A model generated the notes under the pieces. It searched no databases. It had not been told where the DNA came from and saw only the letters and a list, made by a program, of their open reading frames with translations. 64,000 nucleotides of DNA from a virus: the IMG/VR virus record IMGVR_UViG_3300042868_010462, positions 1-64,000 of that record; one strand, 5' to 3'. Below, in pieces: positions 16,332 through 37,368 of the stretch. Each line of letters starts with the position of its first letter. Within the stretch, counting starts at the first letter, position 1. A program made the translations under genes and the position numbers.

Positions 16332-16351
16332 TAATATAAAATATATTGATT

Positions 16352-20635: not shown

Positions 20636-20723
20636 AAAAATAACATCAGAAAAAAAACAAACTTATGATATAACAGTAAGTAATAATCATAACTTCTTTT
20701 GTAATAGTCATTTGATACATAAT
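20616..20723 (+). mobile_element. Split intein, C fragment (36 aa)
   Basis: 36 codons from ATG to Asn36. Length and blocks match natural split-intein C fragments (about 35-40 residues). With the 92-residue N fragment the total of 128 residues is mini-intein size. Confidence 0.85.
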
Positions 20724-20918
20724 TGCGGTTATTTGGGTGAAGTAAAAGTTATAATATTTAATACGAATTCAGACCAAGTAACAATAAAAAAAGGAATGAA
20801 AATTGCACAAGCAGTTTTATGTCCAGTAATAAACGGAAAATATGTTGATTTGGAACTAAAGAAAGATTTAGGTCAAAAAGACAGAGGTGATAACGGATTT
20901 GGCTCAACAGGAATATGA
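20616..20918 (+). CDS. dut: Split-intein C fragment fused to dUTPase C-terminal half
   Basis: 100 residues. Residues 1-36 are intein C fragment with block F (YDITVSNNHNFF) and block G (SHLIHN, with penultimate His35 and terminal Asn36). Cys37 is the +1 nucleophile, followed by the dUTPase C-extein GYLGEVKVIIFN (rest of motif 3), motif 4 GMKIAQAVLCPV and the P-loop-like motif 5 RGDNGFGSTGI. Joined to the N-half, the extein is about 197 residues with all five dUTPase motifs. Stop overlaps the next gene as ATGA. Confidence 0.9.
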   Translation: MKTTKIKKITSEKKQTYDITVSNNHNFFCNSHLIHNCGYLGEVKVIIFNTNSDQVTIKKGMKIAQAVLCPVINGKYVDLELKKDLGQKDRGDNGFGSTGI

Positions 20919-22429
20919 TTACTATAATATACTCAACACATAAGAACGAAGAATATAATTCTAAATTTAAGACCCACCTAATTAATAGTGTGGGTCTTAG
21001 TGATGTTCAAATATTGGAATATCAAAATAATAATCAATATTCTTTAGCTCAAGTTTACAATAGTGGAATAACTGAATCAATTTATGATATTGTGGTATGT
21101 TGTCACAATGATATTAAATTAGAAAAAAATTGGGGTCAAAAATTATTAAATGATTTTAATAATAACCCTGAATTTGGAATAATTGGTAAAGCAGGTTCTT
21201 GTTATTTCCCTGAATCAGGAATTTATTGGGAAAGGATGAAACAAACTATGGTTGGTCAAGTTTGGCATCAACCTGAAGGACAAAAAAAATGGTTGAGTTT
21301 GTATTCACCAAAAGTACCCTTTATTATTCCAGTTGTAACAATTGATGGTTTATTTATATCTTTTAATAAAAACAAACTTAAACATAAGTTCGATGAAACT
21401 ATTGGAAAGTTTCACTTTTATGACCATAGTTTTACAATTCCAAATTATTTAGATGATGTAAAAATTGGAGTAACATCTTCATTTGAAATAACACATGAAT
21501 CTATTGGTCAACCAAATCAAGAATTTTGGGAATCTAAAGAAGTTTTTCTCACAAAATATAAAAATAAATTACCATTAGATTTAAAACCTGAAAAGGTATA
21601 TGTCCCTGAAATTATTGGGAAAAATTTAGATAAAAAAGATAAAGTAGCCATAATAATCCCAACAAAGGGAAAATTAGATTTATTATTCCAATGTTTAGAA
21701 TCATTTTATTTAAATTGTGATTCTAATTTTTTTGACATTTTTATAGCTGATACAGGTTCTTCTTCGGAAGAATTATCAAGTATTGAAAATACGATTATGT
21801 CATACAAAAATATAAAATTAATTAAATATTCATTTTATAATTTTGCAAAGATAAATAATGATGTTGTGAAAAATTATGTAGGTAAACAATATGAATACAT
21901 TTTGTTTTGTAATAATGACATCAAAATTTTGAACAACGTAATATACAGTATGATTAAAGTTTTCAAAGATAACCCAAAAGTTGGTACTGTAGGTTGTAGG
22001 CTTCACTTTGAAGACAATACAATTCAACATGATGGTGTTATAATGTTTATAAGAGATAATAATCAATTAGGTGTAACACATAAAAATCTAAGTACATATT
22101 ATTCCTATAGTTTAGGGTTAAATAAAAATTTTGGTAATACAGGTGGATTGATGATGATAAGAAGATTCACATTTGAAAAGTGTGGTTTCTTTTGTGAAGA
22201 ATATGATAGTTGTTTTGAAGACGTTCAACTTAATGGAACTACTTTACTTTTAGGTTTAGATAACTATTGTGATGGTAATTCAGTTGCCTACCACTATGAA
22301 AGTCAAACAAGAGGAAAAGATGATGTTGCAAAAAATAAAGAAATGAATGATTTTTTTAAAACCTTGTTACCTTTTTTGATAAAAAATTTTACTAAATTAA
22401 TGAATAGAGTTCCGATATATAAAATATGA
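20915..22429 (+). CDS. Two-domain GT2-type glycosyltransferase
   Basis: 504 residues. Domain 1 (about 1-230) has a GT-A-like core with CCHNDIKLE near residues 62-70; domain 2 (about 243-490) begins VAIIIPTKGKLDLLFQCLES, a classical GT2 start, with FCNNDIKIL and a later DSCFEDVQL region as candidate metal and catalytic positions. Two active sites could add two sugars in turn. Starts inside the dUTPase C-half stop (ATGA), so the glycan island is transcriptionally continuous with the dUTPase locus. Confidence 0.8.
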   Translation: MITIIYSTHKNEEYNSKFKTHLINSVGLSDVQILEYQNNNQYSLAQVYNSGITESIYDIVVCCHNDIKLEKNWGQKLLNDFNNNPEFGIIGKAGSCYFPESGIYWERMKQTMVGQVWHQPEGQKKWLSLYSPKVPFIIPVVTIDGLFISFNKNKLKHKFDETIGKFHFYDHSFTIPNYLDDVKIGVTSSFEITHESIGQPNQEFWESKEVFLTKYKNKLPLDLKPEKVYVPEIIGKNLDKKDKVAIIIPTKGKLDLLFQCLESFYLNCDSNFFDIFIADTGSSSEELSSIENTIMSYKNIKLIKYSFYNFAKINNDVVKNYVGKQYEYILFCNNDIKILNNVIYSMIKVFKDNPKVGTVGCRLHFEDNTIQHDGVIMFIRDNNQLGVTHKNLSTYYSYSLGLNKNFGNTGGLMMIRRFTFEKCGFFCEEYDSCFEDVQLNGTTLLLGLDNYCDGNSVAYHYESQTRGKDDVAKNKEMNDFFKTLLPFLIKNFTKLMNRVPIYKI

Positions 22430-22977
22430 TTACGTTTATAATCCCATCCTTGAATAGACCATCTTTGAAAAATTCAGTACAATCTTTAATAAATCAAACT
22501 GAACAAAATTGGAAAGCCATCATAGTTTATGATGGTGTTGATGGTCAATCGTTTGAGGATAATCGAATAACAACCTTAAAAGTAGATAAACTTGGTAGTT
22601 TTAGTTCTCATCATGGTATGGCTGGATTAGTTCGTAATTTTGGTATTGAAAAATGTGACACTGAATGGATTGGATTTTTGGATGATGACGATACTATTGA
22701 TTCAAGGTATGTTGAAACTTTACAAAAAAAATATTCAAAATATGATTTAGTTGTTTGGAGAATGAAGTTCAAGAATGGAATGATTATCCCAAGATTAACT
22801 AATGATAACTTAATTTTTGGTAATGTTGGTATTTCTTTCTGTTATAAAAATAAATTTAAAAACGTTAAATTCGAAGATAATAGAGATGGTGAAGATTTTG
22901 ATTTTATTAGTAATCTTAAAAAAAATACCTCAAATTACATAATAACCCCTGAAATTTTTTATAACGTTAGTCATTAA
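22426..22977 (+). CDS. Small GT2 glycosyltransferase
   Basis: 183 residues, compact GT-A fold. Starts ITFIIPSLNRPSLKNSVQSL, the GT2 N-terminal strand and helix, with the metal-binding run FLDDDDTID at residues 84-92 and a later GEDFDF acid motif. Overlaps both neighbours (ATGA upstream, TAATG downstream). Shorter than many GT2 enzymes but includes both acid motifs, so likely complete. Confidence 0.8.
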   Translation: MITFIIPSLNRPSLKNSVQSLINQTEQNWKAIIVYDGVDGQSFEDNRITTLKVDKLGSFSSHHGMAGLVRNFGIEKCDTEWIGFLDDDDTIDSRYVETLQKKYSKYDLVVWRMKFKNGMIIPRLTNDNLIFGNVGISFCYKNKFKNVKFEDNRDGEDFDFISNLKKNTSNYIITPEIFYNVSH

Positions 22978-23606
22978 TGAAATTATTTGAAAGATTTGAT
23001 AAAGTTTTTTGTATTAATCTAAAAAGACGACCTGAAAGACTCGAACAATTTAAGGAAGAAGTTGATAAATTTGACTTGGGGAATTTTGAAACTTTTGAAG
23101 CTATTGATGGTAATACAATAGCTCAAAATAATTTGGGAGTACTAAAACCAAGTGAAAAAGGTCTAATTGAAAGTAATATTAAAATACTTAAAAATTGTAT
23201 TGAAAAAAAATATAGTAGTGTGTTGATTATAGAGGACGATTGTTTATTCACTGATGAAATTAATAAAATAGATTCATATTTTGATTGTTTACCAAATGAT
23301 TGGGAAATGTTGTATATGGGTGGAAATCATAATACACATATTAAAATAAATCCACCTGAAATCATTAATGAAAAAGTGTATAAATTACATAGTACGTATT
23401 CAACTCATTTTGTTGCTATAAAAAATGTAATTTTTGAATACGTTTTGAATGAATTACAAAATAATCAGTTACCTTTAGATGTAACATATACAAAAATACA
23501 AAAAAATAAAAGAGTATATTGTTTTTATCCAGCAATTGCAAAACAAAGAAATGGTTACTCAGATATCCAACATAGTTTTGTTGACTATGATTGGTTGATT
23601 AAATAA
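22977..23606 (+). CDS. GT25 family glycosyltransferase
   Basis: 209 residues. NLKRRPERLEQF at 14-25 is the GT25 signature near the donor site and LIIEDDCLF at about 83-91 the metal-binding EDD. GT25 enzymes typically add galactose or similar sugars to LPS cores. A second GT25-like gene lies at 32455. Confidence 0.8.
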   Translation: MKLFERFDKVFCINLKRRPERLEQFKEEVDKFDLGNFETFEAIDGNTIAQNNLGVLKPSEKGLIESNIKILKNCIEKKYSSVLIIEDDCLFTDEINKIDSYFDCLPNDWEMLYMGGNHNTHIKINPPEIINEKVYKLHSTYSTHFVAIKNVIFEYVLNELQNNQLPLDVTYTKIQKNKRVYCFYPAIAKQRNGYSDIQHSFVDYDWLIK

Positions 23607-23614
23607 AAAATTGT

Positions 23615-24436
23615 ATGGAAACTAACTTTTTTACAAGTTTTTTAATGGGCGGTTTGGGTAATCAAATGTTTCAGATTTCCCATGCTTACGCTCAAGGGTT
23701 AAAACACAAAACAAAAGTAATTTTTAAACCAACCGCCTACACTCCAATGCAGGCAAACAAACCTGACAAGTATTTTGATAACATTTATAGAAAAATAAAG
23801 TTTGATAACTTTAGTTGTGAATTACATAGAGTTGTTGGTACATGGGATTTCAAAGAAATTATACCCCCTAATGGAAAAAATATAGAGTTTTATGGTTATT
23901 TCCAAAGTAGTAAAAATTTTTATGGTTTTGATGATGATATTAGGAATTTATTTAAACCAAATGTTTCTTTTTTTGAAAAAATAAGTAAAAAGTTCCCGAA
24001 ATTGGATTTTTCAAACAGTGTATCACTACACATTCGTAGGGGGGATTATTTAAAAATTCCAAAGATTTTACCTCCATTAGATGTGTCATATTATGAGAAT
24101 TGTATAAATAAAATTGACTACTATGAAAATATCTTTGTTTTCAGTGATGAAATAAGTTGGGCAAAACAAAATTTAAAATTTAAAAATTTAATTTTTGTGG
24201 AGGGCTTAGAAGATTATGAAGAACTATGGATGATGAGTTTATGTAAAATTAATATTATGTCCAATTCAACATTTTCTTGGTGGGGAAGTTTCTTGAATAG
24301 TAACAAAGATAAAAAAGTTTTTGTTCCAAATATTTGGTTCGGTCCTAATGGCGAAAAAAACTTTAATGATTTGTATGAATCCGATTGGGAAAAAATAAAT
24401 GTAAACTTTTTAAACGATAAATTAATATGTTATTAG
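23615..24436 (+). CDS. GT11 alpha-1,2-fucosyltransferase-like protein
   Basis: 273 residues. GGLGNQMFQ at 12-20, SLHIRRGDY at about 137-145 and SNSTFSWWG in the C-terminal third are the GT11 motifs that bind GDP-fucose. GDP-fucose itself can be made by the Gmd and Fcl genes at the end of the same island, so donor and transferase are encoded together. Overlaps the next gene by 10 bases. Confidence 0.88.
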   Translation: METNFFTSFLMGGLGNQMFQISHAYAQGLKHKTKVIFKPTAYTPMQANKPDKYFDNIYRKIKFDNFSCELHRVVGTWDFKEIIPPNGKNIEFYGYFQSSKNFYGFDDDIRNLFKPNVSFFEKISKKFPKLDFSNSVSLHIRRGDYLKIPKILPPLDVSYYENCINKIDYYENIFVFSDEISWAKQNLKFKNLIFVEGLEDYEELWMMSLCKINIMSNSTFSWWGSFLNSNKDKKVFVPNIWFGPNGEKNFNDLYESDWEKINVNFLNDKLICY

Positions 24437-25050
24437 ATTTCGAAGAATTAATTAAAAAATATAATCTAAAGATTCGGGGAGTAATCCATATTGGTGCACA
24501 TTATGGACAAGAACATCAAATTTATAAAAATGAAAATATTAGTAATATTGTATATTTTGAACCTTTGTTAAAAAATTTTCAAGTATTAAAAGAAAATGTT
24601 AAAGATGAAGCTATTCTGTTTAATTTAGCTTTAGGGTGTGAAAAAAATGAAATAGAAATGTTTGTGGAAAATAACAATTTAGGTCAATCATCATCAATAT
24701 TAGAACCACACCTCCATCTTCAACAATATCCAATAATACAATTTGATAAAAAAGAACTTGTAAAAATGGAAAAGTTAGATGATATTGATATAACATTCGA
24801 ACATTATAACCTAATAAATATTGATGTTCAAGGATATGAACTAAATGTTTTTTGTGGAGCTAAAAAAGTTTTGGAAAAAATCGATTACATAATCAGTGAA
24901 GTAAATAGAGCTGATTTGTATAAAAATTGTACAAAAGTAGAAGAATTAGATTTATTCTTGAAAACATATGGATTCGAACGAGTTGAAACTTCTTGGGTTG
25001 GAAATACATGGGGGGACGCTCTTTATATTAAAAAAAATGATACTTTATAA
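24427..25050 (+). CDS. FkbM-type methyltransferase, copy 1
   Basis: 207 residues. GVIHIGAHYGQE is the SAM-binding loop, followed by IVYFEPLLKNFQVL and later NIDVQGYELNVFCGA, the FkbM hallmark. These enzymes O-methylate sugars in surface glycans. Third-position partner of the GT11 and GT10 genes flanking it; a similar GT10-FkbM pair recurs at 30946-32455. Confidence 0.83.
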   Translation: MLLDFEELIKKYNLKIRGVIHIGAHYGQEHQIYKNENISNIVYFEPLLKNFQVLKENVKDEAILFNLALGCEKNEIEMFVENNNLGQSSSILEPHLHLQQYPIIQFDKKELVKMEKLDDIDITFEHYNLINIDVQGYELNVFCGAKKVLEKIDYIISEVNRADLYKNCTKVEELDLFLKTYGFERVETSWVGNTWGDALYIKKNDTL

Positions 25051-25849
25051 ACTACCTATTTACGACAAAAAATTTGACCACTCTTATTCTTCTAGTTGGT
25101 ATCACAAACCAGAAAAATTTGAGTGGGTAAGAAATGATTACGATAATTTTGAGTTTATTGTTATCACAAACCTTTCAGATGTTGACAAATTCCCGAACAA
25201 AAAAGTAATTGGTTGGATAATAGAACCTCCAGCGATAGATTCAAGTCAATATGAGTATGCCAAAGAAAATCATTATAAATTTTTTAGGATTTTTACTTAC
25301 CACGAGAATTTACTTAGTATTTCAAACAAGTTTGATTTTTTACCGATAGGTGGTACTTGGATAGAAAATAATGAAAGAAAAATTTATGATAAAAATAAAC
25401 TTATTAACATTATTGTATCAGAAAAAAAAATAACTGAAGGACACAAACTTAGGCATCAAATTGTACAAAATTTTACAAATTTGGATATTATGGGTAGAGG
25501 TTATAAAATTTATAACAATAAAGTTGATATGTTAAAAGATTATATGTTTTCTATAGTGATTGAAAATGAAAAAATAAATTCACTTTTTACTGAAAAACTT
25601 ATAGATTGTTTTCTAACAGGTACTATTCCGATATATTATGGTTGTGAAAAAATATGTGAATTTTTTGATACTAAAGGCATTATAGTTTTTAATACTTTAA
25701 AGGAATTGGAAGATATTATAAACAAAATAACTATTGAGGATTATAATCAAAAAATTGATTTCGTTAAAAAAAATTTCGAATTAGCAAAGAATTACACGAT
25801 AGCTGATAATATTATTTTTGAAAAATTAAAAAAAGAAAAATTATTTTAA
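25037..25849 (+). CDS. GT10-like fucosyltransferase, copy 1
   Basis: 270 residues from ATG 25037, which overlaps the upstream stop by 14 bases; an upstream in-frame TTG would need a much longer overlap and is less likely. The C-terminal third has SIVIENEKINSLFTEKLIDC and TGTIPIYYG, the GDP-fucose-binding pattern of GT10 (alpha-1,3/1,4-fucosyltransferases). N-terminal half is divergent, as usual for the acceptor domain. Confidence 0.75.
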   Translation: MILYKLPIYDKKFDHSYSSSWYHKPEKFEWVRNDYDNFEFIVITNLSDVDKFPNKKVIGWIIEPPAIDSSQYEYAKENHYKFFRIFTYHENLLSISNKFDFLPIGGTWIENNERKIYDKNKLINIIVSEKKITEGHKLRHQIVQNFTNLDIMGRGYKIYNNKVDMLKDYMFSIVIENEKINSLFTEKLIDCFLTGTIPIYYGCEKICEFFDTKGIIVFNTLKELEDIINKITIEDYNQKIDFVKKNFELAKNYTIADNIIFEKLKKEKLF

Positions 25850-26611
25850 ATGGACTTCGATAAGAAAAAAATAGTAGAAAAGATTTTAAAGATTTCTTTT
25901 GAAAAAAATGAGGGTCATATACCAAGTTCCCTATCAATTTTGGACATTTTATTTGTGTTATACTCTAAGATTTTGGATGTAAACCGAATCAAAAAAAATG
26001 AAATAGATAGGGATAAATTTATTTTGAGTAAAGGTCATGCTTCTTTAGCAATATACTCTATTTTAGATGAGTTTGGTTTGTTAGAGGAAAACTTGGATAA
26101 TTTTTGTGACTTTAATAGTAAACTTGGTGGACATCCATCAGATAAAATAAATGGTATAGAAATATCTTCAGGTTCACTAGGACACGGATTACCAATAGCA
26201 GTTGGGATGGCAATTGGTCATAAAATTAGAAATTTTACATCAAAGATTTATGTTCTTGTTGGTGATGGAGAACTTAATGAAGGTACGAATTGGGAATCAT
26301 TTTTGTTAGGAGCACAACACAATTTAGATAATTTAGTTTGCATTTTAGATTATAATAAATCAAATGATAGAGCATTACACTTGAATAATTTAGAAGAAAA
26401 AATGAACTCCTTCGGTTGGGAAGTTGATGTTATTGATGGTCACAATTTGATTGAAATCGAAAAATCATTGTCAAAGAAAAACAAAAAACCAAAATTTATT
26501 TTGGCAAATACTATAAAAGGTAAAGGATGTAAAATTATGGAAAACAATCCCGAATGGCATCATAAATTTCCTAATTTAGAGGAATTAAAATTATTAATTG
26601 AAAATTTATGA
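25850..26611 (+). CDS. Transketolase N-terminal (TPP-binding) subunit
   Basis: 253 residues. Has GHIPSSLSILDIL, SKGHASLAIYSIL, SSGSLGHGLPIAVG and GDGELNEGTNWE followed by LDYNKSND, the GDG...N thiamine-diphosphate and metal site of transketolases. The pyrimidine-binding half is the separate next gene. Split transketolases transfer two-carbon units between sugars; here the pair lies within glycan genes, so supply or remodelling of a ketose/branched sugar is plausible but the substrate is unknown. Confidence 0.88.
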   Translation: MDFDKKKIVEKILKISFEKNEGHIPSSLSILDILFVLYSKILDVNRIKKNEIDRDKFILSKGHASLAIYSILDEFGLLEENLDNFCDFNSKLGGHPSDKINGIEISSGSLGHGLPIAVGMAIGHKIRNFTSKIYVLVGDGELNEGTNWESFLLGAQHNLDNLVCILDYNKSNDRALHLNNLEEKMNSFGWEVDVIDGHNLIEIEKSLSKKNKKPKFILANTIKGKGCKIMENNPEWHHKFPNLEELKLLIENL

Positions 26612-27498
26612 GAAAACAACTTGTAAAAAGTGTTGAGAAAATTTTAGATGAAAATGTAAATACATCGTTATTATTAGGAGATATAGGTGTTTTTGGTTTT
26701 AGAAATTCTTTAGAAAAATTCAGTAATCGAGTTTTTAATATAGGTATTTTAGAACAAAGTACAATTGGTGTCGCGGCAGGGTTATCCAAATGTGGTATTA
26801 TACCAATTGTTCACACTATAGCACCCTTTATGGTCGAGAGGGCTTTTGAACAAATAAAAATAGATTTCGGTTATCAAAAATTAAAAGGAAATTTTATCTC
26901 AATTGGTGCGTCATATGATTATGCTGCTTTAGGGTCAACACATCATTGTCCTGGTGATGTACAACTTTTAATGACCATACCAAACTTACAAATATTTTTA
27001 CCAGGTACCTCATTTGAATTTGATTTATTATTGAATGAAATTTATCAAAGTGAATCACCAAATTACTTTAGATTAACTGAATACGAAAATAATATTAACA
27101 TTGATGTAAAGTTTGGAAAAGCAAATGTAATAAAAGAGGGTAAACTAGCGACTATTATTTGTGTTGGAAATATGTTACAAAGTGTCCTCGATGTATGTCA
27201 AAATTTAGATGTAACTATATTGTATTATACAACTTTGAAACCTTTTGATTTTAATACACTGAAGGATTACTTCAATGAAAAAATAATAATAGTTGAACCT
27301 TACTATGAAGGTGTACTGAATTACTATGTCAACTCAACATTCAAAAACAAAAAATTTCATATTGATAATATTGGAATACCTCATATATTTTTACTTAATT
27401 ATGGTACAAAAATTGAACATGATAAAAATTTAAAACTAGATAAACAGAGTATAGAACAAAGAATTATAGAATGTATACAATCGAATCTGAATGTTTGA
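26608..27498 (+). CDS. Transketolase C-terminal (pyrimidine-binding) subunit
   Basis: 296 residues. RVFNIGILEQSTIGVAAGL includes the catalytic Glu of the Pyr domain; PFMVERAFEQIKIDFGYQ and the HHCPGDVQLLMTIPNLQIF region follow, then a C-terminal domain. Starts with an ATGA overlap to the N subunit, so they are probably made in equal amounts to form a heterotetramer. Confidence 0.86.
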   Translation: MRKQLVKSVEKILDENVNTSLLLGDIGVFGFRNSLEKFSNRVFNIGILEQSTIGVAAGLSKCGIIPIVHTIAPFMVERAFEQIKIDFGYQKLKGNFISIGASYDYAALGSTHHCPGDVQLLMTIPNLQIFLPGTSFEFDLLLNEIYQSESPNYFRLTEYENNINIDVKFGKANVIKEGKLATIICVGNMLQSVLDVCQNLDVTILYYTTLKPFDFNTLKDYFNEKIIIVEPYYEGVLNYYVNSTFKNKKFHIDNIGIPHIFLLNYGTKIEHDKNLKLDKQSIEQRIIECIQSNLNV

Positions 27499-28481
27499 AA
27501 ATTATTGAGAAAATAAATTTCGAACCATTGGTCAACAAAAAAATATTAATCACAGGTGCATCAGGTCTTATAGGGAGTTGGATGACAATTTGCTTACAAC
27601 TTTTGAAAAATACTCATAATTTAGAATTATATATTTGGACAAAAAATAAGTTACTCAATTTTAATTCCCCAACTACTGAACTTAATATTATAACAAGAGA
27701 TATTTGTGATGAAAAAAGTTTTACTGATTTACCAAATTTCGATATTATTATTCATGCAGCTGGTTATGGACAACCTTCTAAGTTTTTAGAGAATAAAATA
27801 AAAACTATTATATTAAACACAAAATCAACTATAAATTTAATTCAGAAATTAAATAAAAATGGTAAATTTTTGTTTGTAAGTACAAGTGAAATATACAGTG
27901 GAAACTATAAAGAAGAAATTACAGAAAATGATTTTGGTTTCACATTAACGAATCATCCTCGTAGTTCTTACATAGAGGGTAAAAGATGTGGAGAATCTAT
28001 TTGTTACTCATATATCGAACAAAACATTGATATTAAAATAATAAGATTAAGTTTGGCTTATGGCCCAGGTACAAAAAAAGGTGATACAAGGGTTTTAAAT
28101 TCTCTAATAGAGAAAGCACTCAAGGAAAACGAAATAAATCTATTAGATTCAGGTAAAGCTATACGAACCTATTGTTATATTTCTGATGTAATAGAAATGT
28201 TTTGGAATATATTTTTATATGGGAAAGAAAAAATTTATAATGTCGGAGGTTCAGAAAAAATATCAATTTATGAATTAGCTAAAGAAATAGGAAACTATTT
28301 AAACGTTAATGTTAATTTACCTAAACAAGATAAATCCTTAGAAGGTAGTCCAAATTTAGTTAATATGAGTATTAATAGATATCTACAAGAATTTGGTAAC
28401 AAAAATTTCATACCTTTACAACAAGGTTTAAAACAAACAATTAATTGGCAAAAAAAAATATATGAAGAAAATAACTTATAA
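27471..28481 (+). CDS. NAD-dependent epimerase/dehydratase (extended SDR)
   Basis: 336 residues. ILITGASGLIGSW is the NAD-binding GxxGxxG; IIHAAGYGQP follows; catalytic Ser and the YxxxK motif are seen in STSEIYSG and SSYIEGKRCGES; IRLSLAYGPG and YNVGG complete the sugar-nucleotide epimerase pattern. Acts on an NDP-sugar, which one is not evident. Overlaps the transketolase C subunit by 28 bases and the next gene by 20 bases. Confidence 0.85.
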   Translation: MYTIESECLKIIEKINFEPLVNKKILITGASGLIGSWMTICLQLLKNTHNLELYIWTKNKLLNFNSPTTELNIITRDICDEKSFTDLPNFDIIIHAAGYGQPSKFLENKIKTIILNTKSTINLIQKLNKNGKFLFVSTSEIYSGNYKEEITENDFGFTLTNHPRSSYIEGKRCGESICYSYIEQNIDIKIIRLSLAYGPGTKKGDTRVLNSLIEKALKENEINLLDSGKAIRTYCYISDVIEMFWNIFLYGKEKIYNVGGSEKISIYELAKEIGNYLNVNVNLPKQDKSLEGSPNLVNMSINRYLQEFGNKNFIPLQQGLKQTINWQKKIYEENNL

Positions 28482-29373
28482 AAATATAGAAAAAATTTTG
28501 GGTTTTAAGTTAGACAAAGAACTCAGAGAAAGAGTTAATAGTTTTGATTTAAAATATAGAAAATTAAGTAAAAAAGAATTAGACCATTACTTGAATCATT
28601 GTGTTAATGTCCTCACTAGTGATATAACAATATCCGGTAAACATAGAATAACAGAATGGGAAAAAGGTTGGGATGAAAACCTAACTTCTTTTAATGAATC
28701 AAAAAACATACAAGATTTAATCCCAAAATATCACTCAAAAAATAGAATTGTACGATGGAATGGTGATGTTGTTATGCCTCTTACCGAAAACTTTGACTAT
28801 AAAATTCACATATGTTTTGTAGATGCGATTTTGAGACATTATTCTAAAGGTCTAAAAAATGTATTTGAATTTGGTTGTGGACCGGCTTATCACTTAATTA
28901 GATTGAAAAAATATGATGAAAATATAAATGTGTTCGGTACTGATTGGACAACAAGTTCACAAAAAATTATCGAAAACATAAATCATATTTTGAATATGGA
29001 CATAAAGGGCATCAATTTAGATTTTTTTAATCCTGATTATAATATTGAAATCCCAAAAAATTCTGCTATATATACTGTAGCGTCATTGGAACAAATAGGT
29101 GATGAATTTGGAAAAATCGTTGATTTTATGATTGAAAAAAAACCATCGATTTGTATCCATATGGAACCAATTGATGAATTATTGGATAAAGATATATTAG
29201 TTGATAATTTATCAATCAAATATTTTAGAAAAAGAAATTATTTGAATGGTTTTTTACCTTATTTGGAGTCATTGGAAGAAAAAAATAAAATTAAAATTCT
29301 TAAAAAACAAAGAATTTTTAGTGGTAGTTATTTTATAGAAGGACATTCTTTAATTGTTTGGAAGCCACTATAA
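28462..29373 (+). CDS. Putative SAM-dependent methyltransferase (sugar-related)
   Basis: 303 residues. VFEFGCGPAYHLIRL near residue 134 is a SAM-binding motif I, followed by NVFGTDWTTSSQKI (motif II region) and YTVASLEQIGDEF. The N-terminal ~110 residues are a helical cap. Similar proteins occur in sugar-modification clusters; the acceptor cannot be read from the sequence. Confidence 0.65.
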   Translation: MKKITYKNIEKILGFKLDKELRERVNSFDLKYRKLSKKELDHYLNHCVNVLTSDITISGKHRITEWEKGWDENLTSFNESKNIQDLIPKYHSKNRIVRWNGDVVMPLTENFDYKIHICFVDAILRHYSKGLKNVFEFGCGPAYHLIRLKKYDENINVFGTDWTTSSQKIIENINHILNMDIKGINLDFFNPDYNIEIPKNSAIYTVASLEQIGDEFGKIVDFMIEKKPSICIHMEPIDELLDKDILVDNLSIKYFRKRNYLNGFLPYLESLEEKNKIKILKKQRIFSGSYFIEGHSLIVWKPL

Positions 29374-29393: not shown

Positions 29394-30173
29394 ATGACAT
29401 CTTTTAAATCTGTGATGGCTGTTGATTTAGTAAATTCTTGGGATAAAGTACCTAATGGATGTTGGGATTTATTAGAAGATTTATATATCAGATATAATGA
29501 AGAAAAAAGTACAACTCAAAAAATACCAAAAAAAATTCATCAAATTTGGATTGGTGAAATACCTGAAACAGTAATTGAACTTAGTAATCAAATAAAAACC
29601 ATAAATTCTGATTGGGAATATAAACTATGGACAATGGATGATTTGAAAGATTATCCAATGATGAATAAAAATTTGTTTGATTGTTTACAAAATCCAGGTA
29701 GTAAATCAGATGTTGCAAGATATGAAATAATTTATAACGAAGGAGGAATTTATTTGGATACTGATTTTAAGGTAATAACAAAATTTGATTCCATCATAAA
29801 TTGTGATTTTTTTACAGGGGTTGGTCACTCAAAAGAACCAATGGTCTTTAATGGATTATTTGGAAGCACCCCAAAAAATATTTTTTTGGAGTCATTATTA
29901 ACTTCACTAAAAAATCAAGAATTTGATTGTAATACTAATGATAAAGAAAGTATTATGAATTTTAGTGGTCCTTATTTCTTTTCGAACCAATTTTTTTCTT
30001 TTATTAAACAAAATCCAAGTTCAGATTTTGTTGTTTTCCCAACTCCTTATTTTTATCCCCTACCAGCCACTGAGAGAAATAATGTTAGAAACAACATCAA
30101 TCATGAACTAATTACACAATATATTAGTGATAAAACAATTTGTGTTCATTTGTGGTTTTGTTCATGGCAATAG
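29394..30173 (+). CDS. GT32-type glycosyltransferase
   Basis: 259 residues. KIPKKIHQIWIGE opens the GT32/OCH1-like domain and SDVARYEIIYNEGGIYLDTD carries the donor- and metal-binding DxD. In this family the donor is usually GDP-mannose, UDP-Gal or UDP-Glc. Stop overlaps the next start by 10 bases. Confidence 0.83.
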   Translation: MTSFKSVMAVDLVNSWDKVPNGCWDLLEDLYIRYNEEKSTTQKIPKKIHQIWIGEIPETVIELSNQIKTINSDWEYKLWTMDDLKDYPMMNKNLFDCLQNPGSKSDVARYEIIYNEGGIYLDTDFKVITKFDSIINCDFFTGVGHSKEPMVFNGLFGSTPKNIFLESLLTSLKNQEFDCNTNDKESIMNFSGPYFFSNQFFSFIKQNPSSDFVVFPTPYFYPLPATERNNVRNNINHELITQYISDKTICVHLWFCSWQ

Positions 30174-30949
30174 ATTATATACAAGGAGAGAAATTTCAAA
30201 GATTAGCAGATAATAATAAAATATTTTATGTTGACACACATAATGTTAGTAATTTTTTGAAAAATCCCCCAAAAAACGAATTTGTTTTAATATCACATAA
30301 TAGTGATGGTAATATTACAAAAAACCCCAAAAGATTCAACGCAGGTTCAAGTAATGATTTCTTTTTTGATTACAACACTTTACCTAAAAATTTAGTTAAA
30401 TGGTTTGGTCAGAATGTTGATGTAGAAAGTGAAATTTTAGATTCTATCCCTATCGGATTAGAAAACTCTTGTTGGTTTCCTACAATAAAAAAAATAGACA
30501 AAATTAATACAATTAGAGTCGAAGAAAAAAAATATATTAATCTTTTATACATTAATCATAATATAAATACAAATTTAACTGAAAGACAAAAACCTTACGA
30601 CATATTGAAATCCAAAAATTGGTGCACCACTGAATATGGTAAAAATGGAGAAAACTTTGAACAATATTTAAAAATGTTACATTCACACATTTTTGTTTTA
30701 TGTCCATCAGGTAATGGTTTAGATACACATAGATTTTGGGAAACACTATATGTCAACTCAATTCCTGTGGTTAAAAGAAATTTGAATAACAAATTTTATA
30801 CTGACTTACCAATATGTTTTATTGATGATTGGGAAGAATTAGACGAAAATTTCCTTAACGAGGAGTTGATTAAAATAAAAAAAATGGAATACAACTTTGA
30901 ACAATTGGATTTTAATTTTTGGAAAAACAAAATTAAGAATACTATATGA
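30164..30949 (+). CDS. Exostosin-like (GT47-type) glycosyltransferase, copy 1
   Basis: 261 residues from ATG 30164; the earlier in-frame codons lie within the upstream gene. The C-terminal part has FVLCPSGNGLDTHRFWETLY and SIPVVKR, the donor-binding pattern of exostosin-like GT47 proteins. A partner with similar layout is encoded at 33110. Ends with an ATGA overlap. Confidence 0.65.
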   Translation: MAIDYIQGEKFQRLADNNKIFYVDTHNVSNFLKNPPKNEFVLISHNSDGNITKNPKRFNAGSSNDFFFDYNTLPKNLVKWFGQNVDVESEILDSIPIGLENSCWFPTIKKIDKINTIRVEEKKYINLLYINHNINTNLTERQKPYDILKSKNWCTTEYGKNGENFEQYLKMLHSHIFVLCPSGNGLDTHRFWETLYVNSIPVVKRNLNNKFYTDLPICFIDDWEELDENFLNEELIKIKKMEYNFEQLDFNFWKNKIKNTI

Positions 30950-31860
30950 AAATAAAATTCTTGGGATATTGGAATAATGATTATAACATATACAATTTTA
31001 TAAATGATATTTGGAATTACGATGGTAAATATAATGAATATATCACTTATGGGGATGATTATACACATATAGTTATAATTAATAAAATTAATTATAATCT
31101 GAACTTTGATAAGGAAAAAACCTTCGGAATTATTTTAGAACCTCATTGGTCAACTAATTTTGATAACAATTTGTTTGACAAATGTAAATTTGTTCTGACT
31201 TACGAAACAGATTTTTATAAAAAAAATAATGCCATATTTTATCCATTATTAGGAACACATAGGTTATATAATTGTCAATATAAAGGTGAAATAATATACC
31301 AACCTGAAACCACTAAAACTATAATAAATTCAAACTTCCAAAAAGACAAAAAACTATCCATTATTGTTAATTATCATAGTGAAGCTAATAGTGTTAAATC
31401 TAATTATACCATAACAAGATATGTCGAAAGAGAAAATTTAGTAAAAAAACTTTTGGAAAGTGATTTGGATTTTGATATGTATGGGCAAGATTGGGACACT
31501 ATTGGAGTTAAAGATAGAAGATACAAAGGGTTTCTCTCGAACAAGTTAGATGGTATAAAAAATTATGAATATACAATTGCTTTAGAAAACTCAAGTATTA
31601 GAGGAAATATAACTGAAAAAATTATTGACCCTATTTTGTGTAAAACAATTCCAATTTATAATGGACACCCATCAATACAAGAATTTTATCCAAATTCTTG
31701 TGAGTATTTACACTATGATGGTAATGAAATAGAAAATATAAGAAAAATAATTAATTCTGAAAAAAAAGAATATAATTTTATAGAATCAATAGATTTATAT
31801 TTAAATCATTACAACCCTATTAAAATAATTAAAGAAATAATTGAAAATGACAGTATCTGA
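30946..31860 (+). CDS. GT10-like fucosyltransferase, copy 2
   Basis: 304 residues. C-terminal YTIALENSSIRGNITEKIID and KTIPIYNGHPSIQEF match the GT10 donor site and resemble copy 1 at 25037. The N-terminal half differs, as expected if acceptor specificity differs. Overlaps the following FkbM gene by 14 bases. Confidence 0.75.
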   Translation: MKIKFLGYWNNDYNIYNFINDIWNYDGKYNEYITYGDDYTHIVIINKINYNLNFDKEKTFGIILEPHWSTNFDNNLFDKCKFVLTYETDFYKKNNAIFYPLLGTHRLYNCQYKGEIIYQPETTKTIINSNFQKDKKLSIIVNYHSEANSVKSNYTITRYVERENLVKKLLESDLDFDMYGQDWDTIGVKDRRYKGFLSNKLDGIKNYEYTIALENSSIRGNITEKIIDPILCKTIPIYNGHPSIQEFYPNSCEYLHYDGNEIENIRKIINSEKKEYNFIESIDLYLNHYNPIKIIKEIIENDSI

Positions 31861-32455
31861 AAAAATTTTTGAAACTTTATACTTTAATGATGGTTTTTTT
31901 ATTGAATGCGGGGCTAATGATGGTATCACACAAAGTAATACCTATCTTCTTGAGAAACTTAAAAATTGGAATGGTATATTAGTTGAACCCTCAAAAAATA
32001 AATTCGTTGAGTGCCAAACGAACAGAAGTACTAAAAACATTTTTTATAATTGTGCCTTGGTTTCTGATGATTTTAAAGAAGAATTTATTGAAGGTGATTT
32101 TGATGGTAATTTAATGAGTTCAATAAATGGGAGAAGGCTAAATAGAAAAAATTTGGAACTAGTACCAACATTAACCTTGAATTATATTTTAGAGAAACAT
32201 AAAATTGAAAAAATTGATTTTTTTTCTCTTGATGTTGAGGGTTATGAATTAGAAGTTCTCAAAGGTATTGATTTTAAAAAATTCAAACCTAAGTACATTT
32301 TAATCGAAATTTATAATCATCTTTTTGAACCTATAACTAATTTTTTAAAAAATGAAAATTACATTTTAGTTCAGAATGTTTCAAACTTCAACAAAAACGA
32401 TTATCCAAACTGGGATGGAAGTCATAATGATTATTTATTCAAACAAATAAATTAA
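31847..32455 (+). CDS. FkbM-type methyltransferase, copy 2
   Basis: 202 residues from ATG 31847 (a TTG two codons upstream is also possible). FFIECGANDGITQSNT is the SAM-binding loop, GILVEPSKNKF and FFSLDVEGYELEVLKG the further FkbM motifs. Stop overlaps the GT25-like gene as TAATG. Confidence 0.83.
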   Translation: MTVSEKIFETLYFNDGFFIECGANDGITQSNTYLLEKLKNWNGILVEPSKNKFVECQTNRSTKNIFYNCALVSDDFKEEFIEGDFDGNLMSSINGRRLNRKNLELVPTLTLNYILEKHKIEKIDFFSLDVEGYELEVLKGIDFKKFKPKYILIEIYNHLFEPITNFLKNENYILVQNVSNFNKNDYPNWDGSHNDYLFKQIN

Positions 32456-33105
32456 TGAAACTAGACAAAATTTATTTATTGAACCATAAAGATTTTGATG
32501 TCAGGAGAGATAATATTGAGTCAAAACTTAAAAGTGAAAAAATAGAATATGAGTTGGTTCAAAATTACCATCCATCTGAAATAAATTATGAGTATGATTT
32601 AGGTGATTGGAATCAACATTTTGACATTGAAATAACTCACCCCTATGGTAATTACAAAAATTTTTCCAAAAAGGTTTCTATAGGTAGTTTGAGTTTAGTT
32701 CTAAAACACAAATTTTGTTTCTTGAGTCAGTTAAAATATAATTATAAAAACATTCTTATTTTGGAAGACGATTGTGAAATACCAAACAACTTTCAAAATT
32801 TATTAGATGACGTTATGAACGAATTTGAACCACTTACCAATTTTGGTGTGGGTGTGGTTATGTTAGGTACGGCATTCAATTTTAGTTCCAAAAAAAATGA
32901 TGGGACAAAAAAAATATATTTCGATGAACTACAAAAAACTAGATGTACTCATGCGTATATTATTAATATTGAAGTGACAAAAAAAATAATTGAATATTTT
33001 TCATATTGTAATTTACCTATAGATTTCAAATTAAATGAATTGTTCGAGTTTTTTAAAATAAAAGTTGCTTGGCTAGAACCAGGATTAATTCAAGTAAAAT
33101 TTTAA
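32455..33105 (+). CDS. GT25-like glycosyltransferase, copy 2
   Basis: 216 residues. IYLLNHKDFDVRRDNIESKL at the N-terminus and ILILEDDCEIP near residue 100 are the GT25 core; THAYIINIEVTKKIIEYF follows as in family members. More divergent than the copy at 22977. Confidence 0.68.
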   Translation: MKLDKIYLLNHKDFDVRRDNIESKLKSEKIEYELVQNYHPSEINYEYDLGDWNQHFDIEITHPYGNYKNFSKKVSIGSLSLVLKHKFCFLSQLKYNYKNILILEDDCEIPNNFQNLLDDVMNEFEPLTNFGVGVVMLGTAFNFSSKKNDGTKKIYFDELQKTRCTHAYIINIEVTKKIIEYFSYCNLPIDFKLNELFEFFKIKVAWLEPGLIQVKF

Positions 33106-33109
33106 TATT

Positions 33110-33988
33110 TTGACCATAACAATAGCCCCAATGGTACATCCAGAAGTTGCTGATGCCCCATATTTTTTAGAAATACTTTCTAATCTAAAAGATAAACTTG
33201 ATGATACATTTCATTTTATAATTTCAAGATTAAATACATCAGAAGAAATTGTACAATTTCACAATTGTATAAAAAATGACAAAAAAAATATTTTAATTTT
33301 ACTTTCAGATGAAAAAGGAATTATTCCTCCTTTTTTGGAAAAACTTTATTTAGTATTCAGAACATATAGTAACTCTAATTTAGTTGATAATAAAAAAATT
33401 TTTCCTGTACCATGTGGTTTTTCTTTTGGGTATGGTGGGTTTTTTGGTAATTCAGATTGGAAATATAAACAAACAACAAAAAAATTACTTGTTGACCGAA
33501 AGTATGATATTTTTTATTCAGGTCAATTTTCTCAAAATAGACAAGATTGTATTAACGTGTTAAACAATCTAAAAAATAACTATAATTGTATTGTAAATAT
33601 TACTGATGGATTTGCTAAAGGTTTCAAATTAGAAGAATACTATAATTTTATGTCAGATTCCAAAATCTCAATAGTACCAAATGGTTGTGTGGTGCCTGAA
33701 TCATTTAGATATTTCGAGTCGTTCGAAAACAACTGTATTGTTGTTACAACTTTCCCAAGAAACACAATATATGGTAATTGGTTTTATAATAATTCTCCAG
33801 CAATATTTTTAGAAGAATGGTCACAATTGACCAATGAATTAGTTGATACACTTCTAAGACCTGACGAACTCGAAAAATTTGATATCGTAAATCAGAAATA
33901 TTTTGAACATAATATATCTCCATTGGGGATTAGTAATTATATTTATAAACAAATTACAATTAAAGAAAATGATAGGGGTATACTTTAG
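33110..33988 (+). CDS. Exostosin-like glycosyltransferase, copy 2
   Basis: 292 residues if it starts at TTG 33110; ATG 33131 is an alternative seven codons later. Contains FYSGQFSQNRQDCINVLNNL, SDSKISIVPNGCVVPESFRY and a following FESFENNCIVV, an exostosin-like donor site. Overlaps the GT11 gene by 20 bases. Confidence 0.6.
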   Translation: MTITIAPMVHPEVADAPYFLEILSNLKDKLDDTFHFIISRLNTSEEIVQFHNCIKNDKKNILILLSDEKGIIPPFLEKLYLVFRTYSNSNLVDNKKIFPVPCGFSFGYGGFFGNSDWKYKQTTKKLLVDRKYDIFYSGQFSQNRQDCINVLNNLKNNYNCIVNITDGFAKGFKLEEYYNFMSDSKISIVPNGCVVPESFRYFESFENNCIVVTTFPRNTIYGNWFYNNSPAIFLEEWSQLTNELVDTLLRPDELEKFDIVNQKYFEHNISPLGISNYIYKQITIKENDRGIL

Positions 33989-34688
33989 AGGAAGATTAGG
34001 GAACAATATGTATCAATATGCTTATATTCGAAGTGTTTCAGAAAGATTAAATTTAGAATTTACTATACACGAATCACCACAAGGTAATTTTGAACAATTT
34101 GATGATATTTTTCCTCATTTAAATTACAAAAAAAATGTTGGTTCTTTTACTAAGATGTTAGAAGAAATAAACTATGACTTTAAAGAAGATTTATACAACT
34201 TAAAAGATGATACAATAACGTATGGATTTTTTCAAAATCATATGTACTCCGAAAGAGAAAAAGTTAAAAATTGGTTTAAAATCTTTTTAGACGACAATCA
34301 AGAAAAAGAATTGGAATCAATTGTAAATAATTTTAGTCCTGATGAGTATTGTTATATTAATTTTAGGGGTACAGATTTTATGGATGTTATTAGTTGGCAG
34401 ACAAACAAAGATTTTTTTGAGAGAGCAAAAAATCAAACTAAAAGAAAAAAATATTTGGTAATTACTGATGATATTGAAAACGCTAAAATCAATATTAATG
34501 CTGATGCTTATTTTAACCCAAATTTCAAAATCGCATTGAAATTGATGACTTTATCAAAAGAATTAATAATTCCCGCATGGACTTCTTTTGGTTGGTGGGG
34601 TGCGTGGTTGAGTGAAAGTGAAAAAATTTGGGCGCCTGATATAACTGACATATGTTATAATAAAAATGATATATTCACGTATATATAA
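33969..34688 (+). CDS. GT11 alpha-1,2-fucosyltransferase-like protein, copy 2
   Basis: 239 residues from ATG 33969, chosen because the GT11 start motif begins at once (IGVYFRGRLGNNMYQYA). CYINFRGTDF replaces the usual HxRRxDY motif, so the Arg pair of copy 1 is partly lost; IPAWTSFGWWGAWLS matches the C-terminal motif. Donor likely GDP-fucose, though the altered motif makes this less certain than for the first copy. Confidence 0.75.
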   Translation: MIGVYFRGRLGNNMYQYAYIRSVSERLNLEFTIHESPQGNFEQFDDIFPHLNYKKNVGSFTKMLEEINYDFKEDLYNLKDDTITYGFFQNHMYSEREKVKNWFKIFLDDNQEKELESIVNNFSPDEYCYINFRGTDFMDVISWQTNKDFFERAKNQTKRKKYLVITDDIENAKININADAYFNPNFKIALKLMTLSKELIIPAWTSFGWWGAWLSESEKIWAPDITDICYNKNDIFTYI

Positions 34689-34702
34689 AAAAATTTCAAT
34701 TA

Positions 34703-35335
34703 ATGACTGATACACATTTCGAAAAATTAAAAATAAAGTTTAAAGGATATGAAACCTTAAAAGAATCCTATTCCCAAGCAGGTCAAGACCTATTCGTTTT
34801 GTGCGTGTTGGATGGGAAGAAAAATGGTAAATTTTTAGATATTGGTGCATCTTGGCCAAAATTTTATAATAATACCTTTTTATTAGAGTCCGATTATAAT
34901 TGGAGTGGGTTGTTAATTGAAATAGATAACGAGTATTGTTCTCAATATCCTTCCGATAGAAGGTCAGAATTTATCTGTGGTGATGCAACCTCATTAGATT
35001 ATGTAAATATTTTTTCAAATTTAAAAGAAGTTGATTATCTTTCTTTAGATATTGATGGTTTACCTACTTTAGATGTGCTCAAAAAATTAGATTTGGGTAC
35101 TAATCAAATTTCTGTTGTTACTTTTGAACACGACATTTATAAGTCAGATTCTTATATAAGAGACGAATCAAGAAAAATTTTTGAGTCATTTGGTTATGTT
35201 CGTTTGTGTTCAGATGTTTGTAATGGTGGAAATTCTTTTGAGGATTGGTATATAACTCAAAAAATTTACGATGAAAAACTTAAAGTTTTGGAATCGGTAA
35301 ACAATGAGTGGACTGAAATTATTTACAACAAATGA
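34703..35335 (+). CDS. FkbM-type methyltransferase, copy 3
   Basis: 210 residues. SQAGQDLFVLCVL and GKFLDIGASWPKFYNNTFLL give the SAM-binding region, WSGLLIEIDNEY and YLSLDIDGLPTLDVLK the later motifs. In place of the usual GxExxVL it has DGLPTLDVL, a variant subgroup. Ends with an ATGA overlap. Confidence 0.72.
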   Translation: MTDTHFEKLKIKFKGYETLKESYSQAGQDLFVLCVLDGKKNGKFLDIGASWPKFYNNTFLLESDYNWSGLLIEIDNEYCSQYPSDRRSEFICGDATSLDYVNIFSNLKEVDYLSLDIDGLPTLDVLKKLDLGTNQISVVTFEHDIYKSDSYIRDESRKIFESFGYVRLCSDVCNGGNSFEDWYITQKIYDEKLKVLESVNNEWTEIIYNK

Positions 35336-36354
35336 AAATAATTTTTGAATCAAGTTTATTGTCTCAGAATGGGACTTCTGTAGCAACATTTGACTATGCA
35401 AATTATAACCAAGAAATTTTGGGTAATGAGTCAATTATTCTTACAAAATCTACAAATTATTTGAAAGAGTTACACCCAAATCTTGAGCATCACTCAGAAA
35501 CTTTTAATCTTTTTACAAAAAAATTTGATGTACACCAATATAATAATTGGTATGAAGCTGAAAAAATAATTAGCGACACAAAATGTGATATGTTATATAC
35601 CTTAAAAAGTGGTATTCAGGATGAAATTGTTTCACAAAATACAAAAACAAGTGTTCATGCTGTTTTTAGATGTTTACAACCTCATGGTACAAAAAATGCT
35701 TTTATATCTGAATGGTTGTCTGTTAATTTTTTAGGTGGTCAAATCCCATATGTACCACACATTGTAAAATTACCTGAAATTGACGAGAATCTTAGAAAAT
35801 CTCTTAATATACCAAAAGATGCAATTGTAATAGGACGACACGGTAGTAAAACTTCTTTTAATTTACCTTTTGTTTTTGATGTAATTAATAGAATTATAAA
35901 TGAAAGAACTGATTTATATTTTCTATTTCTGAATACTAATTCTTTTTGTGAAAGTTTTTCAGAAACAAGAATAAATAATCACGAACGAATTATTTTTTTA
36001 CCCGAAACATTCGATGTTTTTGAAAAAACTAAATTTATTAACACTTGTGACGCTACGATACATGCAAGAAAGAATGGTGAAAGTTTTGGTTTGGCTATTG
36101 CTGAATTCTCAATAAGAAACAAGCCGGTTATAACTTGGTCAGGTAAAGAACATCATAAATTTTATGAACATGGACATGATTTTGCCCATATTCATATGTT
36201 AGGGGATTGTGCTTATTATTACGATGATTATGACCAACTTTACAATATTCTAAAAAATTTTGAACCACAACCAAATAAAAATTGGGACGTATACTCCCAA
36301 AAATTTACTCCTCAAAAGGTTATGGAAAAATTTAAATCAGTTTTTTTAGATTGA
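35332..36354 (+). CDS. GT4-like glycosyltransferase
   Basis: 340 residues. The N-terminal Rossmann half begins KIIFESSLLSQNGTSVATFD; the second half has AIVIGRHGSKTSFN, then FINTCDATIHARKNGESFGL, the GT4 donor-binding E-x7-E-like region. Last gene of the transferase run before Gmd and Fcl; a 36-base gap follows. Confidence 0.72.
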   Translation: MKIIFESSLLSQNGTSVATFDYANYNQEILGNESIILTKSTNYLKELHPNLEHHSETFNLFTKKFDVHQYNNWYEAEKIISDTKCDMLYTLKSGIQDEIVSQNTKTSVHAVFRCLQPHGTKNAFISEWLSVNFLGGQIPYVPHIVKLPEIDENLRKSLNIPKDAIVIGRHGSKTSFNLPFVFDVINRIINERTDLYFLFLNTNSFCESFSETRINNHERIIFLPETFDVFEKTKFINTCDATIHARKNGESFGLAIAEFSIRNKPVITWSGKEHHKFYEHGHDFAHIHMLGDCAYYYDDYDQLYNILKNFEPQPNKNWDVYSQKFTPQKVMEKFKSVFLD

Positions 36355-36390: not shown

Positions 36391-37368
36391 ATGAAAAAGA
36401 AAAAAGTAGCTTTAATAACAGGTATTAATGGTCAAGATGGGTCGTATTTAGCAGAATTTCTTTTAAGTAAAAACTACGAGGTATGTGGAACTTTGAAGAG
36501 AAATTCAATTGCTGAGAATCAAACTACAAGATTAGAAAAAATTTATGATAGTATAAATTTACATTACGCAGATATGACTGATTTGTCTTCTTTGATATCA
36601 GTAATACAAATTGTACAACCCGATGAAATTTATAATTTAGCAGCACAATCTCATGTGAAAATTTCTTTCCACCAACCAATCTATACCAGTAATGTTACTG
36701 GTTTAGGTACTTTAAATTTACTAGAAGCGGTAAAACTTATTAAACCCAATACAAAAATTTATCAAGCTTCTTCTTCAGAGATGTTTGGAAATTCTATAGA
36801 TACTGATGGATTTCAAAGAGAGACAACACCAATGAATCCTGTTTCCCCTTATGGTTGTGCAAAAGTTTTTAGTTATAATATTTCTAGAAATTATAGAAAT
36901 TCCTATGGGATGTTTATTTCAAATGGTATATTGTTTAATCATGAATCACCTAGAAGGGGTACTAACTTTGTTACAAATAAAGTTTGTAAAGAAGCAGTTA
37001 AAATTAAACTTGGGTTATCTAATGAGTTAAAACTAGGAAATCTTGAAGCAACAAGAGATTGGGGACATGCTAAAGATTATGTAAGGGCTATGTGGGAAAT
37101 TTTACAATTGGATACTGCTGATGACTTTGTTTGTGCAACGGGTAATTCACATAGTGTACGAGATTTGTGTCAATATGTTTTTTCTTACTTAGGATTAAAT
37201 TATCTTGATTATGTTAAAGTTGATGAAAAGTTTCTAAGACCTGAGGAATTACATAATTTAAAAGGTGACTCATCAAAACTGAAAAATAAAACAAAGTGGA
37301 CTTATGAATATACCTTTGAGTCAATGCTTGAAGAAATGGTACAATATTGGTTGAATTATTATGAATAA
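36391..37368 (+). CDS. gmd: GDP-mannose 4,6-dehydratase
   Basis: 325 residues. ALITGINGQDGSYLAEFLL (NADP loop, Asn in place of the usual Thr), EIYNLAAQSHVKISF, YQASSSEMFG, SPYGCAKVFSYN (YxxxK) and HESPRRGTNFVTNK are family signatures. Converts GDP-mannose to GDP-4-keto-6-deoxymannose, first step to GDP-L-fucose. Slightly shorter than cellular Gmd (about 345-370). Overlaps Fcl by 8 bases. Confidence 0.93.
   Translation: MKKKKVALITGINGQDGSYLAEFLLSKNYEVCGTLKRNSIAENQTTRLEKIYDSINLHYADMTDLSSLISVIQIVQPDEIYNLAAQSHVKISFHQPIYTSNVTGLGTLNLLEAVKLIKPNTKIYQASSSEMFGNSIDTDGFQRETTPMNPVSPYGCAKVFSYNISRNYRNSYGMFISNGILFNHESPRRGTNFVTNKVCKEAVKIKLGLSNELKLGNLEATRDWGHAKDYVRAMWEILQLDTADDFVCATGNSHSVRDLCQYVFSYLGLNYLDYVKVDEKFLRPEELHNLKGDSSKLKNKTKWTYEYTFESMLEEMVQYWLNYYE

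Follow-up and report, generated by a model that had tools for sequence, protein, structure and literature searches.

A natural ketone acceptor for any transketolase (TK) is an open question, on which a 2025 review names only uncharacterised split TKs of Streptomyces (PMC12247030). In miharamycin and amipurimycin biosynthesis such split-gene enzymes, with 13 putative Streptomyces sequences and none of them assayed, are proposed to add a hydroxyacetyl unit to a keto sugar, and on the way to yersiniose A the decarboxylase-class thiamine diphosphate (ThDP) enzyme YerE acts on pyruvate and a CDP-sugar (PMC12247030). Here we analyse a stretch of 64,000 nucleotides (the window; positions 1 to 64,000 of IMG/VR virus record IMGVR_UViG_3300042868_010462) in which a T4-like phage encodes a two-subunit TK, TKN and TKC, followed by a short-chain dehydrogenase/reductase (SDR) and an uncharacterised S-adenosylmethionine (SAM) methyltransferase that we call MT28. 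Our analysis suggests that the phage makes an unusual branched nucleotide sugar for phage or host glycans rather than pentoses, and in our judgement the TK pair probably serves nucleotide-sugar or glycan synthesis and not central metabolism. No report of a phage TK-SDR module was found in the literature searched, and searches for O-antigen clusters that combine TK with colitose or xylulose returned nothing direct.

By sequence, TKN and TKC find their nearest solved relatives in the chains of the Carboxydothermus hydrogenoformans split TK (6yak, 6yaj), which has in common with the phage pair both the two-subunit build and the same ThDP machinery. The phage open reading frames (ORFs) are adjacent and complete, the N subunit bearing the ThDP motif GDGx..E..N and the C subunit the catalytic Glu. 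Both the ThDP site GDGELNEGTNWE and the catalytic ILEQ are present, which bears out the preliminary description, made from the letters alone, of separate N- and C-subunit genes with a ThDP site and catalytic Glu. The Pfam matches are to Transketolase_N, Transket_pyr and Transketolase_C, and so not to the decarboxylase class of YerE; DXS is a further match of the C subunit, which carries a family-specific SYD...THHCP motif, and a PHROGs search of the TK genes gave weak matches to unknown families and nothing else. A ThDP-dependent split TK of a distinct subfamily is the best explanation of the two subunits. Compared by description, the Streptomyces split TKs of the miharamycin/amipurimycin type resemble the phage pair in the proposed hydroxyacetyl transfer but differ in their nucleoside-antibiotic sugar context. 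A TK pair of the phage subfamily, with the same SYD...TH motif, lies on a Streptomyces clavuligerus megaplasmid (L349:13254-14897) and offers a lead for a tie to antibiotic clusters. The small biosynthetic cluster around it holds DUF6271, a phytanoyl-CoA dioxygenase and a condensation domain.

Residues were compared by alignment to Salmonella TktA (663 aa, E. coli numbering) over 40 viral and 75 bacterial sequences. The N subunit of the phage TK family retains H26, H66, H100, G154-D155-G156, E160, N185 and H261, and the C subunit R358, D381, E411, F437 and H473; the loss of ThDP residues that would have spoken against the preliminary description is thus not seen. The ketol-handling histidines (H26, H66, H100, H261, H473) are all conserved in the window's TK, and, judged by alignment, both the ThDP cofactor site and the machinery for handling a two-carbon ketol unit are intact. 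The acceptor/phosphate pocket, on the other hand, is replaced in the window by S385F, H461G, D469L and R520E. The change of H461 to G is found in all 40 viral and all 75 bacterial sequences, D469 to L in 39/40 viral ones, R520 to E in 36/40 and S385 to F in 31/40. R520 aligns with R478 of E. coli DXS, and we take this arginine to bind the substrate phosphate in both enzymes. In the acceptor loop the Carboxydothermus C chain still has the His and a Glu-Asp-Gly stretch; these positions are Gly and Leu in the phage family, whose residue at R520 is acidic. Because the residues for the sugar phosphate and for the acceptor C2 hydroxyl are replaced, a standard pentose-phosphate role of the pair appears unlikely.

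The pair is neither isolated nor restricted to one phage. Viral contigs yielded 37 loci when scanned with the N subunit (46-62% identity) and 60 when scanned with an alignment; after near-duplicates were taken out, 45 viral loci with the pair were left, and 42 of these follow the order TKN-TKC-SDR. A scan of bacterial and archaeal genomes gave 234 relatives (at most 59% identity among the best 80 of 234) in Patescibacteria, Verrucomicrobiota, Thermodesulfobacteriota, Actinomycetota, Pelagibacter, gut Bacillota and others, and the same order is kept in 34 of the 37 bacterial loci that have the SDR. Treponema bryantii (L077) and Clostridium citroniae (L084) are two cultured bacteria among the carriers of the module. 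In the phage, successive ORFs overlap by 4 bp (TKN/TKC), 28 bp (TKC/SDR) and 20 bp (SDR/MT28), so that the four genes look translationally coupled. The record that holds the window (147,874 bp) encodes a T4-type major head (capsid) protein (phrog_138, 2e-67), which has its best matches among deposited Microcystis, Flavobacterium and uncultured large phages. The window's TKC lies, in a quick maximum-likelihood tree, inside a supported virus-only clade (29 rows, SH-aLRT 99), and bacterial contamination as the source of the pair was rejected on that ground; a complete split TK carried by a phage amid glycan genes, as first described, stands. Deposited phage genomes (INPHARED) held no clear or annotated phage relative of the TK subunits: the annotated matches inspected came from bacterial contigs (Salmonella, Acinetobacter), and the others were records without annotation that did not exceed 40% identity. 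Three records filed as phages (AGRM01000002, CAKLQH020000010, CAKLQF020000014) carry bacterial chromosomal genes (tktA, metH, speB) and are bacterial contigs.

What does the partner SDR do? In both sequence and fold (profile search, Foldseek) its closest solved relatives are human UDP-xylose synthase (UXS; 2b69) and the Campylobacter CDP-6-D-glucitol synthase (8v4g/8v4h), the latter at 30% identity. The phage SDR shares the UXS fold and its S-E...Y-x-x-x-K set, with S139, E140, Y167 and K171 invariant in 48 sequences, yet reaches 63.5 bits with the NCBIfam UXS-type model against a cut-off of 294. CDP-6-D-glucitol synthase reduces CDP-6-fructose with NADPH, and its hallmark is an extra helix preceding the Rossmann fold (PMC10918830). 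In the AlphaFold (AF2) model (pLDDT 93), residues 2-14 of the phage SDR form a helix ahead of a first strand at 24-28. In this the phage SDR resembles the Campylobacter enzyme HS5.17, which is UXS-like and has an additional helix at its N terminus; the partner of HS5.17 is an IspD-type cytidylyltransferase, whereas that of the phage SDR is the TK, and the catalytic pair is Met-Glu in HS5.17 but Ser-Glu in the phage. GDP-4-keto-6-deoxymannose reductase has a Ser115-Glu116 pair where dehydratases have Asp-Glu or Asp-Lys (PMC10918830), and it is this reductase, not the dehydratases, that Ser139-Glu140 resembles. The nearest reductase of known function to the SDR acts on an NDP-linked ketose (PMC10918830), that is, on a nucleoside diphosphate (NDP) sugar. 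Two loci of gut Bacillota (L084, L107) have GMD, ColD and Fcl, then a DkgA-like aldo-keto reductase directly before TKN-TKC, and no SDR; because this reductase takes the place of the SDR, the SDR slot would seem to be reductive. Pau7, the ketoreductase of the paulomycin C4 acetyl branch, is likewise an aldo-keto reductase (subgroup AKR5I; PMC4753412). The preliminary description was right to place an NDP-sugar enzyme directly after the TK genes; its label of epimerase/dehydratase fits less well, as the enzyme is UXS-like and, from sequence and model, more likely serves to reduce the TK product than to epimerise.

The sugar on which the pair might act is indicated by the genes around it. Family searches of the whole 148-kb record find three Epimerase-family genes, the GDP-mannose 4,6-dehydratase GMD, the Fcl-like gene and the SDR, while searches limited to known families, in a record that may be incomplete, gave no match for DegT, NTP_transferase, IspD or RmlC. 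Because GMD, Fcl and the SDR are the only such genes and no nucleotidyltransferase accompanies them, the single recognisable NDP-keto-sugar route encoded by the phage would be that to GDP-4-keto-6-deoxymannose. GMD, shared by the GDP-L-fucose and GDP-L-colitose pathways, is present with a TIGR01472 score slightly under the curated cut-off. Of the viral loci, 38/45 have one or more of GMD, ColD, Fcl and RmlC, as do 31/37 bacterial loci with the SDR. As regards the colitose pathway (GMD, ColD, ColC), sister phages (L005 and L028, for example) have ColD, a DegT-family 3-dehydratase, beside the TK, in 18 viral cases no more than 150 bp from the TK-SDR block, unlike the window's own record, in which ColD/DegT has no match. 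The ColD proteins of the sister phages bear the His-for-Lys motif (YFGHHFSTIEGG), and their best PDB match is E. coli ColD (7e-65). A single scan (430 relatives; L128-L207) shows ColD-like 3-dehydratases to be widespread among viral contigs, mostly adjoining GMD and Fcl, which suggests from gene content that phages often produce GDP-colitose or a relative.

MT28, which adjoins the SDR in many TK loci, occurs in 19/45 viral loci and ColD in 20/45, with both together in just one; such co-occurrence is rare (1/38, Fisher 4e-6, in a test that ignores kinship). On the TKC tree the ColD-versus-MT28 label changes six times, two of them forced by well-supported branches, rather than in a single split. 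The mutual exclusion fits alternative tailoring of one sugar. A Methyltransf_25 match stands at 0.23 for the window's MT28 and at 0.0007 for its relative in locus L006, and the AF2 model (pLDDT 95.5) finds generic SAM methyltransferases only in Foldseek. In a second bacterial clade (within L104-L124) the TK pair lies beside other 4,6-dehydratase-like SDRs and RmlC, and in places beside an HddA-like heptose kinase and a B12 radical-SAM gene; the products there are possibly, to judge from these neighbours, branched or C-methylated deoxyheptoses. Members of this clade are L104, L106, L109, L114, L118, L120 and L122, several with heptose-7-phosphate kinase-like and KedN5-like B12 radical-SAM genes. 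In Roseburia faecis the pair occurs together with CDP-glucose genes. Across these settings the constant partner of the TK pair is, by gene content, an NDP-4-keto-sugar pathway.

We propose that the phage GMD would convert host GDP-mannose to GDP-4-keto-6-deoxymannose, and that a host ketose would give up a two-carbon ketol unit, which TKN/TKC would attach to the carbonyl at C4 of this sugar, not to an aldose phosphate. The product would be a GDP-6-deoxyhexose bearing a 4-C-hydroxyacetyl branch, that is, an octose, whose branch ketone the SDR would reduce to a 1,2-dihydroxyethyl group. MT28 would then methylate or otherwise tailor the sugar, where sister phages have ColD instead, and one of the surrounding glycosyltransferases would pass it to a phage or host glycan. 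The acceptor, the C4 position, the donor, the order of steps, the stereochemistry and the glycan target are parts of the scheme that we infer, and ketol transfer to C4 of GDP-4-keto-6-deoxymannose followed by branch reduction to a C4-branched sugar is, as a whole, a serious possibility that stops just short of probable. The likeness to the YerE pathway is that there, too, a ThDP enzyme branches C4 of an NDP-3,6-dideoxy-4-ketohexose by two carbons before ketoreduction; the phage pair differs in being TK-type, of two subunits and in a GDP-sugar context. More tentatively still, phages and many bacteria may have in common an undescribed pathway in which a remodelled split TK makes GDP-linked C4-branched octoses from GDP-4-keto-6-deoxymannose or its 3-deoxy form, the phages building their own glycans from host GDP-mannose. 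The TK family comprises dozens of gene sets, compact and ordered, for which GDP-4-keto-6-deoxymannose (in combination with ColD or on its own) is a defined candidate acceptor, and these are directly assayable. If true, the scheme would provide a new route to branched sugars and a new tertiary-alcohol biocatalyst, and would mean that phages construct a complex nucleotide sugar and do not just borrow those of the host.

Several observations weigh against this scheme. ColD is present in 20/45 TK loci and in 20/65 control loci, a difference that is not significant (Fisher p=0.16); the controls are loci without TK from a GMD-centred viral scan, FkbM and DXD-type glycosyltransferase single-gene scans having given too few loci. 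Since the control loci carry ColD too, part of the association is a general glycan-island effect; what we claim for ColD is its adjacency to the block and its mutual exclusion with MT28, not an enrichment. In the window GMD lies about 9 kb away from the TK genes, and Fcl would compete for its product. The residue assignment depends on a sequence alignment of the divergent half, and if the phosphate-binding residues are lost, something other than a ketose phosphate may serve as the donor. Finally, a related clade (Chloroflexi, Actinomycetota) has no nucleotide-sugar neighbours.

Other explanations can be offered for the same genes. The clear TK homology and intact ThDP site would suit an ordinary pentose-phosphate TK, acting as an auxiliary metabolic gene to supply nucleotide synthesis in the infected cell, as viral tkt genes of marine viromes have been read (PMC4053976). 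We consider this highly improbable, given that the equivalents of S385, H461, D469 and R520 are lost, that neither transaldolase nor 6-phosphogluconate dehydrogenase was found in the record, and that the pair, which is coupled to an NDP-sugar SDR in viruses and bacteria alike, is located within a glycosyltransferase island. Of the two roles put forward in the preliminary description, pentose supply is thus disfavoured, and an unusual or branched sugar is favoured, narrowed to a GDP-4-keto-6-deoxyhexose acceptor. A free unusual ketose (or its phosphate) that is later activated and used as a ketofuranosyl or alditol residue, the SDR acting like CDP-6-D-glucitol synthase on an open-chain NDP-ketose, would account for the nearness of the SDR to that synthase, including the helix before the Rossmann fold (PMC10918830). 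It is unlikely, as no IspD-type cytidylyltransferase or NTP_transferase match exists in the record and what lies near the pair in related loci is a 4,6-dehydratase, 3-dehydratase or RmlC gene.

The remaining alternatives keep a branched sugar and alter either the donor or the order of steps. If pyruvate were the donor, as for YerE or the proposed AviB1/AviB2 complex, the branch would be acetyl and the product would resemble GDP-linked yersiniose; the missing TK phosphate-binding residues and the score of the C subunit against DXS, a pyruvate user, are consistent with this. The histidines that contact the ketol hydroxyl (equivalents of H26, H100 and H473) are all conserved, however, which favours a hydroxylated two-carbon unit and leaves the pyruvate donor rather unlikely. 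Alternatively, the SDR might act upstream, forming the keto sugar for the TK to branch, with GMD and Fcl for GDP-fucose only: the miharamycin and amipurimycin models place an oxidoreductase ahead of the split TK (PMC12247030), and the nearby GT10 and GT11 folds suit GDP-fucose use. That order is quite unlikely, given that a reductase-type aldo-keto reductase adjoins the TK where the SDR is missing and that the substrates of ColD or RmlC already bear a 4-keto group.

Table 1. Features of the TK locus and the surrounding glycan genes (window coordinates)
Feature	Coordinates	Strand	Evidence
TKN, N-terminal ThDP-binding subunit of split TK	25850..26611	+	253 aa; Pfam Transketolase_N 1.2e-37; PDB 6yak 1e-52
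TKC, C-terminal (Pyr + C) subunit	26608..27498	+	296 aa; Pfam Transket_pyr 1.1e-18, Transketolase_C 4.3e-07; PDB 6yaj 2.6e-24
SDR, UXS/CDP-glucitol-synthase-like	27471..28481	+	336 aa; Pfam Epimerase 5.6e-38; UXS1 profile match 4.7e-49; 8v4g 1.7e-48
MT28, uncharacterised SAM methyltransferase of the module	28462..29373	+	303 aa; weak Methyltransf_25, AF2 model, Foldseek
Glycosyltransferases (GT2, GT25, GT11, GT10) and FkbM methyltransferase, directly upstream of TKN	20915..25849	+	Pfam
Further glycosyltransferase-like genes (DXD-type, RXYLT1-like, GT10, GT11-like), FkbM methyltransferase, some family-less ORFs	29394..36354	+	Pfam
GMD, GDP-mannose 4,6-dehydratase	36391..37368	+	TIGR01472 8e-118, 393.5 bits vs cut-off 415; GDP_Man_Dehyd 1.4e-116
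Fcl-like GDP-4-keto-6-deoxymannose epimerase/reductase	37361..38266	+	NF047922 GDP-L-fucose synthase 3e-67, under cut-off

Elsewhere in the window, a dUTPase gene is interrupted by a split intein (19031-19708, 19742-20635, 20616-20918). Its N half terminates in a Hint/intein N part, its C half opens with the intein C part (...HN/C), and an endonuclease-like ORF (weak DUF1064) sits between the halves. A NUMOD3/REase_MTES_1575-like ORF at 16346-17110 is probably another homing-type endonuclease.
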